DNA of 44,554 bases from a virus. Of the stretch, positions 1-34,949 are shown piece by piece. A program made the position numbers and the translations under genes. Position 1 is the first letter of the stretch, and each line of letters starts with the position of its first letter. The stretch lies in IMG/VR virus record IMGVR_UViG_3300034198_012395, positions 1 to 44,554 of that record; one strand, written 5' to 3'. The notes beneath the pieces were generated by a model that saw only the letters and a list, made by a program, of their open reading frames with translations, did not search any database and was not told the DNA's origin.

Positions 1-518
1 TGGAAACGGCCGCTCGCCGCCGATCCATTGAGCGATTGCGCTGGGAGCAAATCGACTTGGAGCATGGGATTATCCACTTCCATAAAGACGGAAGGCGGCA
101 GAAGAACAAGCGCCGTGTCCCCGTGCCTATTTCTGACCGCCTACGCCCTGTCTTGGAGCGCGCCGCGATGGAAAACGACGGGTCTGCCTATGTTCTGGAT
201 ACCCCCGTCAGCATCCAGCGAGAGTTTGTGCGGTTGGTGAAGCAATTCGCGGCCGTCAACAAGGAGAAGGCAGCCAAAATGACCTGCCACACCATGCGGC
301 ATACTTGGGCGACGCTTGCGGCCCGCGCTGGCGTTGACCTGTATCAGATCGCCGGTGTCCTTGGGGACACATTGGCAACTGTGGAACGCAACTACCTGCA
401 CCACGCGCCGGAGCATCTTCGGGCTGCGATCAACTTCAAGAATGCAGCGCTGAAATCGGGCGAAATGCCCGTTTTGAGCGTAGGCCGTGACCAACAACAA
501 CCACCAACGACATCGTAA
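1..518 (+). CDS. int: Tyrosine site-specific integrase, C-terminal part (5' truncated by window edge)
   Basis: Catalytic domain of a phage tyrosine recombinase, which joins attP and attB. The frame is open from base 3. Conserved features in order: the Arg-I box near the edge (ETAARRRSIERLRW, where many relatives have TGxR), then CHTMRHTW at about 286-312 (the HxxRH box), then LGDTLATVERNYLHH, whose tyrosine codon at 393-395 is the expected nucleophile. The position usually His or Trp after LG is Asp here. About 171 residues are visible; phage integrases are usually 350-400. The N-terminal part of what may be the same gene lies at 44313-44554, so the window was probably cut inside int. The protein ends shortly after the tyrosine box with a hydrophilic tail, followed by two hairpins. 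Confidence 0.93.
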   Translation, partial: ETAARRRSIERLRWEQIDLEHGIIHFHKDGRRQKNKRRVPVPISDRLRPVLERAAMENDGSAYVLDTPVSIQREFVRLVKQFAAVNKEKAAKMTCHTMRHTWATLAARAGVDLYQIAGVLGDTLATVERNYLHHAPEHLRAAINFKNAALKSGEMPVLSVGRDQQQPPTTS

Positions 519-530
519 AAGGCAAAAAAA

Positions 531-560
531 TGGGCCAAACCGTGTTGATGGCTTGGCCCA
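531..560. terminator. Hairpin downstream of integrase
   Basis: An 8-bp perfect inverted repeat, TGGGCCAA and TTGGCCCA, with a 14-base loop, begins 12 bases after the integrase stop codon. There is no T-run directly after it on the plus strand. It lies between convergent int and the end of the late operon, so a role in transcript 3' ends is likely but not shown. Confidence 0.4.
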
Positions 561-594
561 AGTCTAGGGAGGAAACGCCCAGAGTGGGCCTACT

Positions 595-624
595 TGACGG
601 AAAAATTGACTGATTTTTCCGTCA
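595..624. terminator. Symmetric hairpin between convergent int and late operon
   Basis: A perfect 12-bp stem, TGACGGAAAAAT and ATTTTTCCGTCA, with loop TGACTG. The A/T runs lie inside the stem, so the element looks the same from both strands, as expected for a bidirectional terminator between convergent transcription units (int from the left, the 680-residue virion gene ending at 653 from the right). Confidence 0.6.
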
Positions 625-652: not shown

Positions 653-2695
653 TCAAAACGGCTCGTCCGCGCCTGCGGCGCGTTCCTCGCTGCGGACATG
701 CTCGGCAACCTTTAGGCTGTTGCCGGACGGCATTGTGATAGTGACACCTTTTGGCATCTCAATCGTCACGTTTCCGTCTGCATCTATTTCAACAACCTTG
801 GCAACTCCACCGCCGCTAGAGGAGGGGAGCCGTAGGGTGTCGCCAGGGGCCATTTCATCCACGGGAAGGTGCAGGCCGTTGATTTCCGCTTGTTGCTCAT
901 GGATAGCGGCTTGCTCATTCATGTGTTGCTCATGCGATTTAATTCCGCCTGTGACACCACGGGCTGATTTGCCGCCTTTAGCTGACTCAACTTCATCCAT
1001 GAGGCGGGCCAAAAGTTCATGGTGCGTGTCATTAGGCCCAAATGGCGATCCTTCGATTTGATTGTCTGCGTTTCGCAGACCGACCGCGCCCATCAGTTCA
1101 TCGGGGGTGCTTTTTGAACCTCTTCTAAAAATGATTTTTCCGTAGGCGGGGGGAATTCGACCAAGCGCCTCATACATGCCCTTGCCGGTGCTTTCCCACC
1201 AGTCCTTGCCTTTCACCCTGCGGGCCTCCGTGGCAGACATAATCCCCCCGTTCTCTATGACCCATTTGGCTACAGCCTGCTCGCTAAAAAGCTGCGTCTT
1301 GGTCATCGGTTTGTCTCCCTTGACCTTGCCAGCCGGTAGCGTCGGCTGCGCTGCCTGCTCGCCGTATGATTTTTCAACCTTTTTAATGGCCGGTGGCTTG
1401 CGAAGGAGGTAGTTCACCTTGAGCGCGGCCAAGGTGCGAACCTTATCCTTGTCGCCAGCCTCGCGGGCTGTCTGCATGTCTGCGTTCAGCGCATCCAATA
1501 AAGCGTTTCCAGCCGGTTTTGCCGCCGCTTCAGGCTCGGCGATTGGTGAGGCAGCAGGGGTTTCGATAGCAGCCGACGCACCCTGTGGGATTTGCTCGCC
1601 GGCTGAAGATTCCAAAGGGGGCGAATCGGGTTCCTCAAACATCTTTGTTTGCGCCGCATCTTGGGCCGCTTTTGCCGCCTCTTGGGCTTTTATTTCGGCC
1701 GCTGCGGCCGCTTCAGCGGCAGATGCGTCTGTCTCACTAGCAAGATTAAAGGATATTTCGTCATTTCGGAAAAGCTGGCCTTCTCCAACCGTGTTAATTG
1801 TGCGCGGAGTAGGTTCTTGGGGAGCTTGAGCTTCCCCGCGTGGTGTTTCCTGTGGCAGTTCGCGCACAGGATTGCGCATTTCTTCATTTCCTCCAGTAAA
1901 CGTGATTTCTCCACTCGGCCGTTTCTGGAATTCAGGCTGAATTTCTTTTCCGCTGGGTTCAGGTGATGGTAATCCAGCGCTTCCGCTACCCCGTTCTCCC
2001 TGCAAATTTGGCACCCCTGGAACAGTTTGTATTGGCTCACCAGTTGCATTATTTGCATTTTGTATTTCTGGGTTGCTTTCGACCAAATCTTCCTTTGGTG
2101 TTGTATTTTTTCCTGTGGTGACATTGTTTTGGGGTAGTTGGGGTTTGCTTATCGCGTGCCTGCCCGATCCAGCCGCCATCAGCGCAGACGATACGGCTCC
2201 AGCGGCCGGTTCTACTACTTGTTGAAGTGTGGCGTCTGGATTGCCGGCTTGATTGATTGCTTCTGCGCCTTGCTGGACGGCATTTGCGCCCATCACGGGA
2301 GCTAAAACGGCAGACGCCAACCGGCCTGCGGCCGCTACAGGTAGTGTCCTAATGGCGTTTGGGGATGTCATGGTTTCTACGGCCGGCGCGATAACGCCAT
2401 TGTAGATGCCCGAAGCTACTTGCCCTATCGTTGACTCTGCCTGCGGAGCGCGCGGGAGCGGAATCATTGGCTTGTCTGCGGCCTCATTTCGGCGCATGAC
2501 CTGGCCCGTCAGCGAGTTTGGGTTAGCCTTCGCTATTTCGGCGTTTTGCCGATACGCATCCATGAATGCGCCGGCTCCTGAATACCAAGGCTGGGGGTTT
2601 GATAGCTTGTGTGCGGCGGCAGAAATATCTGCGTCGGTCATCCCGTCGGGGAATTCGACTTCTCCGATGTTGGGAATCTCAACGATTGTCGGCAT
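653..2695 (-). CDS. Virion/ejection-associated protein, last gene of the late operon
   Basis: A 680-residue protein ending the late operon. Its start overlaps the previous stop as TAATG. Residues about 1-32 carry the module xxVEFPDGMTDADISAAAHKL, which is also at the N-terminus of the collagen-like fibre in this window (LQFPEGTSDATMDAAVRRF). Residues about 100-175 are Ala/Gly-rich and apolar, which is common in ejection proteins. Residues about 191-410 are low-complexity, rich in P, E, N, G, then A. The C-terminal third is more globular (KWVIENGGIMSATEARRVKGKDWW). Position after other ejection-type genes suggests an internal or tail virion protein; no enzymatic motif was recognised. The low-complexity stretch at about residues 191-290 coincides with an HNH endonuclease frame at 1690-2124. 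Confidence 0.72.
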   Translation of the reverse strand: MPTIVEIPNIGEVEFPDGMTDADISAAAHKLSNPQPWYSGAGAFMDAYRQNAEIAKANPNSLTGQVMRRNEAADKPMIPLPRAPQAESTIGQVASGIYNGVIAPAVETMTSPNAIRTLPVAAAGRLASAVLAPVMGANAVQQGAEAINQAGNPDATLQQVVEPAAGAVSSALMAAGSGRHAISKPQLPQNNVTTGKNTTPKEDLVESNPEIQNANNATGEPIQTVPGVPNLQGERGSGSAGLPSPEPSGKEIQPEFQKRPSGEITFTGGNEEMRNPVRELPQETPRGEAQAPQEPTPRTINTVGEGQLFRNDEISFNLASETDASAAEAAAAAEIKAQEAAKAAQDAAQTKMFEEPDSPPLESSAGEQIPQGASAAIETPAASPIAEPEAAAKPAGNALLDALNADMQTAREAGDKDKVRTLAALKVNYLLRKPPAIKKVEKSYGEQAAQPTLPAGKVKGDKPMTKTQLFSEQAVAKWVIENGGIMSATEARRVKGKDWWESTGKGMYEALGRIPPAYGKIIFRRGSKSTPDELMGAVGLRNADNQIEGSPFGPNDTHHELLARLMDEVESAKGGKSARGVTGGIKSHEQHMNEQAAIHEQQAEINGLHLPVDEMAPGDTLRLPSSSGGGVAKVVEIDADGNVTIEMPKGVTITMPSGNSLKVAEHVRSEERAAGADEPF
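1690..2124 (-). CDS. HNH endonuclease nested in another frame of the virion gene
   Basis: A 144-residue frame wholly inside 653-2695 on the same strand but in a different frame. It has the full signature of a known HNH family: C38-x2-C41 (GCQIC), ALDYHHLNP (His53, His54), a Lys/Phe-rich step, EMKKC, then C87-x2-C90-H91-x3-H95 (CANCHRKHH). Two CxxC pairs for zinc, the DYHH catalytic box and the final CHxxxH all have normal spacing. Residues after about 100 are basic, lack HNH features, and may be read-through of host-gene sequence. The ATG is preceded by AAACCCCAACTACCCCAAAACA, a C/A-rich leader like those of other genes here (shown as 22 bases would exceed the limit, so only its type matters). 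Both frames are fully open. Function as a homing-type nuclease is inferred from the family. Confidence 0.8.
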   Translation of the reverse strand: MSPQEKIQHQRKIWSKATQKYKMQIMQLVSQYKLFQGCQICRENGVAEALDYHHLNPAEKKFSLNSRNGRVEKSRLLEEMKKCAILCANCHRKHHAGKLKLPKNLLRAQLTRLEKASFSEMTKYPLILLVRQTHLPLKRPQRPK

Positions 2696-5673
2696 TATTC
2701 AGCGGCTTCAAGCTGTCCTGTTTGCGGGTTCCATCGCATCCTACGAGTCGCGCTAGTATCTCCAGCCTTCTGAACAGGCGCAGCCGCTTTCTTCGGAGCA
2801 GGTGCAGGGGTAGATTTTTCTTCATTGTCGTCGTCCTTCTGTCCGTCCCCGCGATTGACTTCCTGCATCAGAATATTCATCTGCTGGCGCGCCCATGACG
2901 TGCGTTTCCAGTTTGATTCCGTTGGACGAAGCAAAAGCTGCTTCATCTTATCGGGATCCAAAAATGCCTGTAGCTTGATATTGTCTGCAATCTCTTCAGC
3001 GCGCCCGTTTTTGACAGATAGTTTTGCCAAATAACCTAGATTTTGAAGCAAAGTAGCGCCTGATTTAAGGTTCCTCATTGCGGGGATATTAGTATATCCT
3101 TTCACAGCGTTACCTACACCCTCGGCAATACTTCCATCGACCTTGTTGACGTTGGTTTGAGATCCAACAACAGACTGCCGGATTCGCCCGCTCATTTCGA
3201 GCCGGCGATGGTTGGTCAAAAGCGTGTCAATCTCATCCTTGGTCAGAATTCTGCGCAAATTCTTCATTACCGGCCCATTTTCTGCCAGCATCTTGCCAAG
3301 CTGATTCATGGATGTCGGAAGATCCTCATTAGCGATCTTTTCAGCCGTATTGCCCAAAGAAGCCTTGCCCTTATTGAATAGCCGCTCGCCAAGCCATTGA
3401 CGGGTTGCGTTTTTCAACGCATCCATAGACTTGCCGCTTTTATCTAGCTTGGCCGTCTGTAGGAGTTCGTTGACAGCGCTGGTTGAGTCTTTTGACCCAA
3501 AGGCTTCGGCAACAGTTGAAACGGCCGCATCGGGGCTTCCTTTGGAGAATTTGCCAGGGAGGCTAGTATCAGCCTGCTTGCTGGCAGCGGCAGAATCGGC
3601 CTTCATTTGCTCAAGCTTACCGGCCTGCTTACCTTGGAACGTCGTCGCGGCGCTAATCTGTCTGGCCTTGGCCTGTTCAGCCGCCTTGACTTCGGGAAAC
3701 GTCGATATGGCTGGGTTTTTATTGATTGCCGCCGTGATGCTCTGCTTGGTTGGGGTTGCCCCAGATGCCCTTGCCACACTTGCAGACAGATAATCTCCAG
3801 CCGCCTGCTTGCCCTGCGGGGTTGTTCCAACGGTTTTGCTGAATTGTGTCGCTCCTTCAGGAGAAGACATGTATTTGCCCATCGTTTCTGATGGTAGGGT
3901 ACCCCTATCCAAAGCCTCGCCGGCAGGGCCATTTGCCCAGCGGTTTTGAAAGGTCTTGAACGAGTTATTTGCCTGTCGAAGGGCCGTGTTTGCAGCCCCT
4001 CCGGCTTCGCGGTCTGCGATCAGACCTTCCTTGAACATGACGTAAAGGCGAGTGGCTTGATTCTGTCCAGCGCGCTCGGCTTGGCTGATGAGTCCGTTTA
4101 CAATTTTAAGATCGGATTCAAGCTCGCCAAACGTCGTTTCAGGGTTGGCCGCGCGATCCTTCATCATCGCGCCGATCCTCTCGCGCGCGCTGTTTATCGA
4201 CGGATCAACGCCGGCATTCACGCCATGCTCGGCAAGGGCTTCCTCGCCGGCCTTCAGAGAGTTCTCAAAAGTAATCGGAGTTTCGCGCGGGACGGCAGCG
4301 TAAAGCTTCTGATATGCCGCCTTTTCATCAACCATCATGTCGCCGGCCTGCCGTCTGGCAGTCGTGGATGCCGCTGTCTGTTGGTCTGCGGTGGCGCTAC
4401 TGGTGACAGCGGCGCGCCTGCTATCAACAAGATCGTTCGCGCGGTTCATGTCAACGTCTTCAAAGTTTTTAGCGTTCCGTTCGGCAGCGCGGGCAAGATT
4501 TGAAAGCAAGCGACTGAAAAACCCTTGGCCTTCCTGTATAGAAGCCCCCACGGGCTGCGTAGCCTGTGCAACAGACCCGCTAACAGCATCAAAATTATCC
4601 TGATACCTGCCTCGCATGGCCGGCTGATTCTGGAATAGGCCGTTTTCTATAGCCAGCATACCAGGATTGTCTGAAAGCGCTCCAGCCGTAGGGCGGTATC
4701 CTTGGCCGGAAACTCGGTCTGCCTCAAGGTTTGAAACCGCCGAATCAATAGCCTGTTGGCGGGTCAGGTCAGGCCGTGACCTAACAAGTTCTTCCGTAAT
4801 TTGAGATTGCGCAGAGCTTTCTGCGGCTTGGCGGGCATTTTCAAGCCTTGCGCCTCCAAGTCCAAATGACGCCGGAAGAACCTCCCCATTGGGCAAGGTC
4901 ACATCTTGGCCGCGACCAACAAGGCCGCGTCCAAAAGCCTTAAACGATTCAGGCCCGCCCATTGCATTGACGCCTCCCCTGATTGCACCCCTGCCAAGAA
5001 CAGCGGCCATAACAGGAGTCAGAGCGCCAGCAACCATTCCTGAAGTAGATCCATCGGTGACATCGCTGCCGAATTGCGCGCCAACCCCAGATGCCGCGCC
5101 GAGCGCGGCGTTGGCCTCGGGGGCGTCAGCAAGCGCGTTGGCAGTTCCCTGAAATACAGGACGGAACCTATCCGCAACCTCTATCCCCTTCATCACGGCA
5201 CCGGCCCGATTGCCTCCGATAGCGTCTTTAATGCCGCCTGATGCCGCCGCCAAATACTCTTCGCTCTTTGTCTGCGGTTCTGGCAGAGGGTTGTATTGGT
5301 TAACGAAATTATCAAACAACCTGCCTACGCTTAAATCGACATTTGGGTATCCGGCGTAGTGCGCCCCCGCATTTACAGCCATGAGCGGCAAATCTATTAG
5401 ATGGGCAAGCCCATAAGCTCCGGCTCCAACGCCAGCGCCAGCCGCCATTCCAGGAAACCCGCCAGGAGACCCAAGCGCTGCGCCGCCCGTAGCGGCTACA
5501 CTAAGCGGCCCCCAAGGACGCGCAGTAGCACCAAGCGCGTGCAATGCGCTTTTTGCACCATCTTCAATGCCTTGAATTGCCTCTGGAGACCCAGGCTCGA
5601 CGGCGGGTTGAAATTTATTCCAAGGGCCAGATTGACCGGCCTGCGACGAGAATTGTTCCCAAGGTTTTGGCAT
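2695..5673 (-). CDS. Large internal virion (ejection) protein
   Basis: A start at 5673 (MPKPWEQF) is chosen because it follows the previous stop as TAATATG; an upstream in-frame extension would only overlap the preceding gene. This gives 992 residues. The N-terminus has two PW-x-x-F type motifs (PWEQF, GPWNKF), a feature I associate with large podoviral ejection proteins. Gly/Ala-rich apolar stretches follow (about residues 40-100 and 185-240), then a long helical, Ala/Gln-rich body, and an acidic/Lys-Pro tail (DDDNEEKSTPAPAPKKAAAPV). The gene order and size match the T7 gp15/gp16 region, proteins ejected to form the DNA conduit. No lytic transglycosylase motif was seen, so a specific assignment is not made. 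Confidence 0.75.
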   Translation of the reverse strand: MPKPWEQFSSQAGQSGPWNKFQPAVEPGSPEAIQGIEDGAKSALHALGATARPWGPLSVAATGGAALGSPGGFPGMAAGAGVGAGAYGLAHLIDLPLMAVNAGAHYAGYPNVDLSVGRLFDNFVNQYNPLPEPQTKSEEYLAAASGGIKDAIGGNRAGAVMKGIEVADRFRPVFQGTANALADAPEANAALGAASGVGAQFGSDVTDGSTSGMVAGALTPVMAAVLGRGAIRGGVNAMGGPESFKAFGRGLVGRGQDVTLPNGEVLPASFGLGGARLENARQAAESSAQSQITEELVRSRPDLTRQQAIDSAVSNLEADRVSGQGYRPTAGALSDNPGMLAIENGLFQNQPAMRGRYQDNFDAVSGSVAQATQPVGASIQEGQGFFSRLLSNLARAAERNAKNFEDVDMNRANDLVDSRRAAVTSSATADQQTAASTTARRQAGDMMVDEKAAYQKLYAAVPRETPITFENSLKAGEEALAEHGVNAGVDPSINSARERIGAMMKDRAANPETTFGELESDLKIVNGLISQAERAGQNQATRLYVMFKEGLIADREAGGAANTALRQANNSFKTFQNRWANGPAGEALDRGTLPSETMGKYMSSPEGATQFSKTVGTTPQGKQAAGDYLSASVARASGATPTKQSITAAINKNPAISTFPEVKAAEQAKARQISAATTFQGKQAGKLEQMKADSAAASKQADTSLPGKFSKGSPDAAVSTVAEAFGSKDSTSAVNELLQTAKLDKSGKSMDALKNATRQWLGERLFNKGKASLGNTAEKIANEDLPTSMNQLGKMLAENGPVMKNLRRILTKDEIDTLLTNHRRLEMSGRIRQSVVGSQTNVNKVDGSIAEGVGNAVKGYTNIPAMRNLKSGATLLQNLGYLAKLSVKNGRAEEIADNIKLQAFLDPDKMKQLLLRPTESNWKRTSWARQQMNILMQEVNRGDGQKDDDNEEKSTPAPAPKKAAAPVQKAGDTSATRRMRWNPQTGQLEAAE

Positions 5674-12566: not shown

Positions 12567-13262
12567 TCAGCAAACATCTTTGGGGTAATTTCCAAGGCTC
12601 GTCAATCCCAAAATCCGGCTTGGGTGCAACTTCCAGCAATCAGGGAGCCTGTCGTCGGAAGCCGTGGATTTCCTTCGGTTCAACGACCTGGGCAAAACAT
12701 GAAGATTTAGATGGTGGTGCCATCCGCCTAACTTCAGAGGAATAAAATGATCCACCTCAAAAATGCATCCAAGGCACTCCTGTAGGCGGCGGCGGGACTC
12801 CCTCACGGCCAATTCCATGCCGCAGTCATGGTCTTGATGTAGGGCCGCTTTCAGGCGCGCTCTGCGCGCTGTGTTATGAAGGTTTCGCTTCTCTGGGTAG
12901 AGTTTTGCGTATTCCCTGCCATATCTTCGTTTTCTTTCTATGTTTCGGATGTATTCAGCGCGAGAAATTTCCCTTCGTCTTTCTGGGTTGTTTCTAGCCC
13001 ATCGTTGCCTATTGGCTTTGTGGCGATCAGGATTTTCTTTTACCCATTTCTTTGTTCGCTCGCAGTTGTCGCGCAACATTTTTTCGCGGTTCTTGATCCG
13101 CCATTCCGCCAATGATTTTTCATGCTTTTGCTTCCTTGCGTCAAACTGATCTGGAGTCATCCATATTTCAGGATTTCTTCCACAACGCCTTTCGTAGATC
13201 CAAAATCTCTTTGTTTTACACGGACTCCAATCTCCTCTTTTGTATTTTGGCGCGTGGTTCAT
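12567..13262 (-). CDS. Free-standing HNH homing endonuclease
   Basis: 231 residues. Residues about 5-45 form a small domain (KYKRGDWSPCKTKRFWIYERR, then EIWMTPDQFDARKQKH) followed by a long basic helical linker with NPERR/YPEKRN repeats, often seen in HNH proteins. The catalytic part is at about 165-196: CIFEVDHFIPLKLGGWHHHLNLHVLP then LNRRKS, giving the His-Asn-His finger. It sits between the major capsid gene and the next structural gene, right after a strong terminator, so it looks like a mobile insertion in the late operon. Its first domain recurs in the small protein at 34686-34949. Confidence 0.88.
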   Translation of the reverse strand: MNHAPKYKRGDWSPCKTKRFWIYERRCGRNPEIWMTPDQFDARKQKHEKSLAEWRIKNREKMLRDNCERTKKWVKENPDRHKANRQRWARNNPERRREISRAEYIRNIERKRRYGREYAKLYPEKRNLHNTARRARLKAALHQDHDCGMELAVRESRRRLQECLGCIFEVDHFIPLKLGGWHHHLNLHVLPRSLNRRKSTASDDRLPDCWKLHPSRILGLTSLGNYPKDVC

Positions 13263-34519: not shown

Positions 34520-34720
34520 ATGCCCATGAACATGTCTATGGAGGAGGATTTTTTCGACATATGGTGGCGTCGCGATGGTGCGCGTCTGCTATTGCCAGAT
34601 GGTCAGATCCCCCAATTAGAGGATTACGTCAAAGTAGCTTTCTTGGCCGGCTATCGCAAGCGCGTTGCAATCGAAAAGACAATCAATGAACTCCGAGAAG
34701 GTAAAATACCGACGCGGTGA
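34520..34720 (+). CDS. Small protein of unknown function
   Basis: 66 residues, MPMNMSMEEDFFDIWWRRDGARLLLPDGQIPQ. There are three ATGs in the first seven codons (34520, 34526, 34532 region), so the true start may be a few codons later. Acidic-aromatic start, then helical. It overlaps the following gene by 35 bases. Confidence 0.5.
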   Translation: MPMNMSMEEDFFDIWWRRDGARLLLPDGQIPQLEDYVKVAFLAGYRKRVAIEKTINELREGKIPTR

Positions 34721-34949
34721 CTTATCGCCGTGCGGCGAGTATCGTTTTTGGCAATATCAATCACACGTCCGAAAAGACGGAATCAAAGGTGAAAGGTGGA
34801 TCCCCGTTCATACATATGATTGGTATCGTAAGCAGGACATGCACAGATCCGAGCTATGTTCAGCCAATACAGAATTTCACAGACAGAAGAGAATGACCCC
34901 CAAGATTGACCCAAAGGAATACATCTGGAAGACCTACGGAATTAAATAA
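34686..34949 (+). CDS. Small protein sharing the N-terminal domain of the HNH endonuclease
   Basis: 87 residues from ATG 34686 (MNSEKVKYRRGDLSPC). Residues 7-52, KYRRGDLSPCGEYRFWQYQ ... ERWIPVHTYDWYRKQDMH, align with residues 6-46 of the HNH protein at 12567-13262 (KYKRGDWSPCKTKRFWIYE ... EIWMTPDQFDARKQKH). No nuclease domain follows. It may be a free DNA-binding module of homing endonucleases or a decayed relative. Confidence 0.65.
   Translation: MNSEKVKYRRGDLSPCGEYRFWQYQSHVRKDGIKGERWIPVHTYDWYRKQDMHRSELCSANTEFHRQKRMTPKIDPKEYIWKTYGIK

Follow-up and report, generated by a model that had tools for sequence, protein, structure and literature searches.

We found that a phage gene at the end of a structural cluster encloses, in a second frame of the same strand, an ORF for an HNH endonuclease, and that in the shared DNA the codon-level constraint follows the HNH frame. 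The window, i.e., the whole stretch of DNA that was analysed, is the 44,554-base virus record IMGVR_UViG_3300034198_012395 (positions 1 to 44,554). The explanation that we favour, with a probability of roughly 0.8 for the whole, is that an HNH gene was inserted into the structural-cluster gene, that the DNA has been read in both frames since, and that the HNH protein is made by internal initiation. An HNH gene of a widespread phage family would thus have entered the structural-cluster gene in the common ancestor of two phages, and the inserted ~105–120 codons would have left the host frame open, as it is observed to be. The host protein would be made as one chain in which the HNH DNA, read out of frame, forms a flexible linker, and for the HNH protein, ribosomes would initiate internally on that mRNA, at the HNH ATG, which lies within an unstructured A/C-rich stretch. 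The two genomes show that purifying selection has preserved the HNH protein throughout the divergence of the flanks, and that the host frame has been kept stop-free, but otherwise unconstrained, across the HNH. From its family, the HNH is most likely a free-standing nuclease of the homing type, guarding its own locus and promoting the spread of that locus. The features of the locus are listed in Table 1.

Table 1. Features of the nested ORF pair in the window; L002 is the second genome carrying the pair.
Feature	Position	Strand	Description
Host ORF	653..2695	minus	680 aa; closes the structural cluster; product putatively virion-associated
Nested HNH endonuclease ORF	1690..2124	minus	144 aa; shifted +1 from the host ORF; homologue likewise nested in L002
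Dual-coding segment	1763..2124	minus	HNH codons 1–120, corresponding to host residues 191–311; HNH-type constraint
Right edge of the dual-coding segment	about 1724–1780	minus	support interval, host residues 306–324
HNH core	1840..2013	minus	residues 38–95 (CxxC, DYHH, CxxCH-x3-H); family-invariant columns all intact
Run-on C-terminal tail of the HNH ORF	1690..1762	minus	substitutions follow the host frame
Leader of the HNH start	2125..2146	minus	A/C-rich, unstructured, without Shine–Dalgarno

Layout and family of the nested gene

The HNH ORF is wholly enclosed by the host ORF on the same strand, with a frame shift of +1, and starts with ATG. An earlier note on this DNA had placed the two ORFs on the minus strand at 1690–2124 and 653–2695, which is exactly where they lie, and the HNH motifs that it had described were borne out as C38xxC41, D51YHH and C87xxC90-H91-x3-H95. 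The window encodes a terminase and a portal protein (PHROG matches), together with a podovirus-type major capsid protein and, at its left end, a partial tyrosine recombinase. Because the 680-aa host protein had no significant match in Pfam, NCBIfam or PHROG, its label of virion protein rests on gene order: the gene ends the terminase/portal/capsid cluster, and its product is a putative virion protein on that ground. The structure model of the host protein was poor (pLDDT 39), too weak for judging a linker. We also noticed a second HNH-like gene downstream of the capsid gene (window 12567–13262, minus; PHROG 333, E 0.0011), which has an N-terminal stretch in common with a small ORF at window 34665–34949 (plus) (KYKRGDWSPC/KYRRGDLSPC).

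The sole second genome carrying the host gene is IMGVR_UViG_3300032285_002887 (L002), and all comparisons are between these two genomes. L002 carries the same nested pair, with the HNH at L002:4001–4435 within L002:3484–5421. Its host homologue (645 aa) is 57% identical to the window host protein, whereas the HNH proteins are 65% identical and the terminases 93% identical. The 435-nt overlap aligns without gaps, at 72% DNA identity and with identical start and stop positions. At the right edge of the dual-coding segment (window about 1766–1800, minus), ~30 bases are identical to L002, compared with 72% for the rest; this run probably reflects constraint in both frames, and an RNA element or a target-site element is also possible. 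Just downstream of the host gene, the suhB/mmgR small RNA family (RF00519) is matched over its full length in both phages (window 517–596, minus, beside the partial integrase gene, and L002 5478–5554, plus). This match may mark part of an attachment site or be a small RNA that the phages carry; it also hints at an alphaproteobacterial host.

Could the nested ORF be a true HNH endonuclease gene? Its product matched the PHROG HNH families 3106 and 2255 (E 1.5e-21 and 4.7e-21) and had matches in 411 phage records, and the Pfam HNH match was sub-threshold (17.5 bits, with a cut-off of 21.4). Invariant columns were defined by aligning the nested HNH with the L002 copy and 15 free-standing viral relatives, and all 18 of them, including the zinc cysteines and the core histidines, were intact in the nested HNH. 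The structure model was confident (mean pLDDT 87); a Foldseek search with it returned nothing below E 0.2, the best weak matches being HNH nucleases. These results support a true HNH endonuclease gene, with DNA cleavage predicted from the family. We judge the ORF to be real because of its homology and the codon-position pattern, and not because of the length of its open frame.

Codon-level constraint, extent and relatives

Which of the two frames is under selection? Between the window and L002, the substitutions at host codon positions 1/2/3 number 60/39/98 and 103/57/198 in the flanks, with the usual third-position excess. In the overlap (host residues 191–310), they number 50/28/19: the excess now sits at host position 1, equivalent to the third position of the HNH codons (chi-square P 4e-6 and 3e-9). 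Synonymous and non-synonymous change in each frame, the comparison that the earlier note had proposed, gave the same picture, with constraint in the HNH frame and not in the host frame. In a two-frame count over these residues, the HNH dN/dS was 0.16, with an upper limit that is undefined because the synonymous sites are saturated; the host-frame dN/dS in the overlap was about 1.2–1.5 (1.21, 95% 0.70–2.40, for residues 191–310), compared with 0.20 and 0.21 in two flank segments, the third being saturated. The codon-position flip and the dN/dS values therefore indicate that the HNH amino acids are conserved and that the host-frame amino acids are free to change. The HNH motifs, which the earlier note had allowed might prove eroded in relatives that keep the low-complexity segment, are intact in L002, and the drift falls on the host-frame amino acids instead. 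The comparison supports the HNH as the older, selected reading, with the host protein apparently bearing the same DNA as a freely evolving linker.

In the overlap, divergence at HNH-synonymous sites is about the same as at host-synonymous sites in the flanks, which argues against a recent transfer of the HNH alone. Could the nested HNH have been domesticated, so that it no longer homes and is kept intact because it serves the phage, e.g., in packaging, recombination or the exclusion of rivals? We hold this to be possible, at well below even odds. The HNH has co-diverged with the host gene under strong purifying selection, with a synonymous divergence equal to that of the flanks, and it is present in both known genomes. 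On the other hand, repeated homing would likewise keep the HNH intact, a difference that two genomes cannot separate, and the HNH lies far from the terminase gene. Domestication bears on the present function of the HNH and not on its origin by insertion.

With regard to the lasting state of the locus, we consider it slightly better than an even bet that the structural-cluster gene has permanently absorbed the HNH, that both readings of ~360 bp are selected, and that the segment is a stable, vertically inherited, dual-coding home for a selfish gene. The HNH would then be selected for its sequence, and the host frame for staying open and linker-like.

How much DNA would have been inserted? The HNH protein ends 6–21 residues past the NCHRxxH motif in 20 of 21 other relatives and 39 past it in the remaining one, compared with 49 in the nested HNH; the native end of the family would thus lie near HNH residue 104, as opposed to 144 here. 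In a likelihood scan, the return to host-type constraint falls at host residue 311 (HNH residue ~121), and on the left, HNH-type constraint starts at the HNH start. With the native end at ~104 and the constraint switch at ~121, the last ~24 HNH codons probably belonged to the host gene originally and are now read in the HNH frame. The free-standing relatives and the switch together suggest an inserted length of about 105–120 codons, which fits within the 100–145 codons estimated at the outset. A 15-nt, 80% repeat near both ends in L002, with a spacing of 310, was considered as a flanking direct repeat; we took it as chance because this spacing is not divisible by 3 and the repeat is missing from the window.

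No empty-site relative of the host protein was found in viral contigs, genome contigs, phages or plasmids, nor among 37 records whose terminases are related; for this reason, we put forward the insertion event, homing and mobility as inferences. Among the collections searched, the host gene was found in two genomes, both with the HNH, and a search with its upstream neighbour matched only L002. Eight extra viral-contig matches to the host protein were confined to its first 30–68 residues, and in the four inspected (L004, L007, L009 and L010), this N-terminal module starts unrelated long proteins. Could the HNH once have lain between two genes that were joined into one 680-aa frame by the loss of stops? 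The ~30–50 N-terminal residues of the host protein are indeed a module that also starts unrelated long phage proteins; however, no separate homologues of either half of the host protein were found, and across the overlap, a continuous host reading in a different frame is kept open. We regard such a fusion as unlikely.

The module itself, MPxIxEIPGxGxVxFPDGMTDADI, begins at 3484 in L002 and at 6001 in L004, L007, L009 and L010, and a 650-aa collagen-like protein at window 17975 has a similar stretch at its start; the module may serve as a common tag for targeting to the virion. Immediately upstream of the module lies a gene with similar C-terminal tails across phages (RMRWNPQTGQLE, RRYNPATGTIE and LYYNPATKTVE), located at window 2695 (the end of a 1040-aa ORF), at L004 6001 and at 5998 in L007, L009 and L010, and these tails are possibly another sorting signal.

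In a survey of nesting among 80 viral HNH relatives, the L002 copy alone was enclosed by a long second frame. The short second frames over the HNH relatives in L123, L124 and L169 look like chance, and an HNH match labelled 'tail protein' (H44) has an ORF of about HNH size and was taken as a misannotation. In L141, the 3' part of an HNH relative (2713–3258, plus) overlaps a 265-aa ORF (3036–3833, plus) that lies in another frame and runs past it; this partial overlap may be chance, the neighbouring genes being on the other strand. Two free-standing relatives, L100 1100–1264 and L103 857–1273, sit in phage tRNA arrays, and both extend at their 3' ends ~10 bases into the following tRNA gene.

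Expression of the HNH protein and the open host frame

The HNH ATG (2124) has no Shine–Dalgarno, and a promoter scan found no promoter-like site. In the window phage, 16 of 21 other starts checked, including that of the capsid gene, likewise show weak or no anti-Shine–Dalgarno pairing. Furthermore, in both genomes, the fold energy of the 40 nt around the HNH ATG is 0.0, which places this stretch within the least structured 2% of positions in the host ORF. Because the ATG region is unstructured and starts with a weak or no Shine–Dalgarno are common in this phage, Shine–Dalgarno-independent internal initiation fits. Translation of the HNH by +1 ribosomal frameshifting out of the host frame, with the HNH start unused, is improbable. 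The HNH frame is the +1 frame and is open upstream of the ATG for 8 codons in the window and 4 codons in L002, but these short stretches offer no apparent slippery site common to the two phages. Both genomes keep the ATG and the initial residues of the HNH, and neither has structure in the start region.

How surprising is the open host frame? When the HNH protein is held fixed and coded with random synonymous codons drawn from the phage's usage (4000 simulations), 7.7 host-frame stops are expected in the window and 8.9 in L002, whereas 0 were observed in both. The host frame was stop-free in 1/4000 (window) and 0/4000 (L002) simulations (P ≤ 0.0003 each), and the third frame has 12 stops across the overlap in each genome. 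Compared with random synonymous recodings, the host-frame peptide of the window also contains fewer hydrophobic residues (P 0.0005) and more disorder-promoting ones (P <1/4000), a linker-like composition that is weak in L002. The low-complexity linker described in the earlier note is clear in the window and holds only weakly in L002. The overprinting that it had proposed stands as far as an HNH in another frame and an open host frame read as an unconstrained linker are concerned, and the search for an HNH-free relative found none.

Is the HNH segment perhaps removed or skipped in making the host protein, by an unrecognised intron, an intein-like element or bypassing of the T4 gene 60 type? HNH genes often reside in introns and inteins, and the bypassing in T4 gene 60 is tied to a homing endonuclease. 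However, removal would not demand a stop-free host frame, which both genomes have, and the HNH-type constraint extends over almost all of the segment, so that no space remains for a ribozyme. No Rfam group I or II intron family matched around the HNH ORF at either locus (window or L002), and no intein signature was found in the host ORF, as judged by the lack of a family match in the host frame. Because no intron family matches and removal would not explain the lack of stops, splicing of the segment appears unlikely from the sequence, and we give removal or skipping of any kind very long odds.

In the reverse test, with the host protein given, the HNH frame is open by chance with P about 0.1–0.2, and for this reason the open 144-codon HNH frame is unremarkable on its own. 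That the HNH frame is an eroding remnant, with the host frame alone functional, is hardly credible: GC-rich DNA does give long second frames, but the constraint lies in the HNH frame and not in the host frame, and all invariant HNH residues are intact in both genomes.

Comparison with known systems

Hidden, out-of-frame HNH insertions are a kind already known (PMC11855218). The ShiLan domain and the Pacc40 gp60 insertion contain such HNHs in mycobacteriophage DNA methylase genes, where the host frame is open, there is no intron, intein or Shine–Dalgarno, and the host-frame reading is predicted to be disordered or looping (Arsenault, Gosselin and Gogarten 2025, PMC11855218). The nested pair shares with this kind an HNH in another frame of a longer phage gene, a host frame that is open across the HNH, a host-frame reading of predicted disordered or looping character, and the lack of an intron or intein signature and of a Shine–Dalgarno before the HNH; the likeness is drawn on arrangement and not on HNH sequence homology. 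On the other hand, the host gene here belongs to a structural cluster of another phage group and is not a methylase, the HNH starts with ATG and not GTG, and the HNH ORF runs on into host sequence, whereas the ShiLan one ends with the insertion. Furthermore, the HNH is present in both known genomes here and patchy in the ShiLan case, and the evidence of selection here covers both frames at the codon level.

The free-standing phage HNH genes of PHROG 3106 and 2255, often found in tRNA arrays, have the same core and invariant residues as the nested HNH, but they are separate genes, and many carry an N-terminal zinc ribbon that the nested HNH lacks. Like homing endonucleases borne by introns or inteins, the nested nuclease gene lies within another gene without destroying it; unlike them, it comes with no detected splicing element. 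In the gene 60/mobE cassette of phage T4, bypassing is linked to a homing endonuclease, and there, as presumably here, a nuclease gene has lodged at a gene that is needed, with the host accommodating it at the translation step. The T4 ribosome skips a 50-nt gap, whereas the host frame here is open and can be read through.

If both frames are selected, this is, to our knowledge, the first hidden HNH with codon-level evidence of selection in both frames. Hidden out-of-frame HNH insertions would thus extend beyond mycobacteriophage methylases, and in this case, the codon record shows the older frame, a rough insertion end and the upkeep of both frames. Screens for nested genes are worthwhile because gene callers that forbid long same-strand overlaps likely miss them. 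Compared with introns and inteins, the arrangement supports a further route by which a nuclease gene may live inside another gene, namely as an insertion that is read through as a tolerated linker and expressed by internal initiation.
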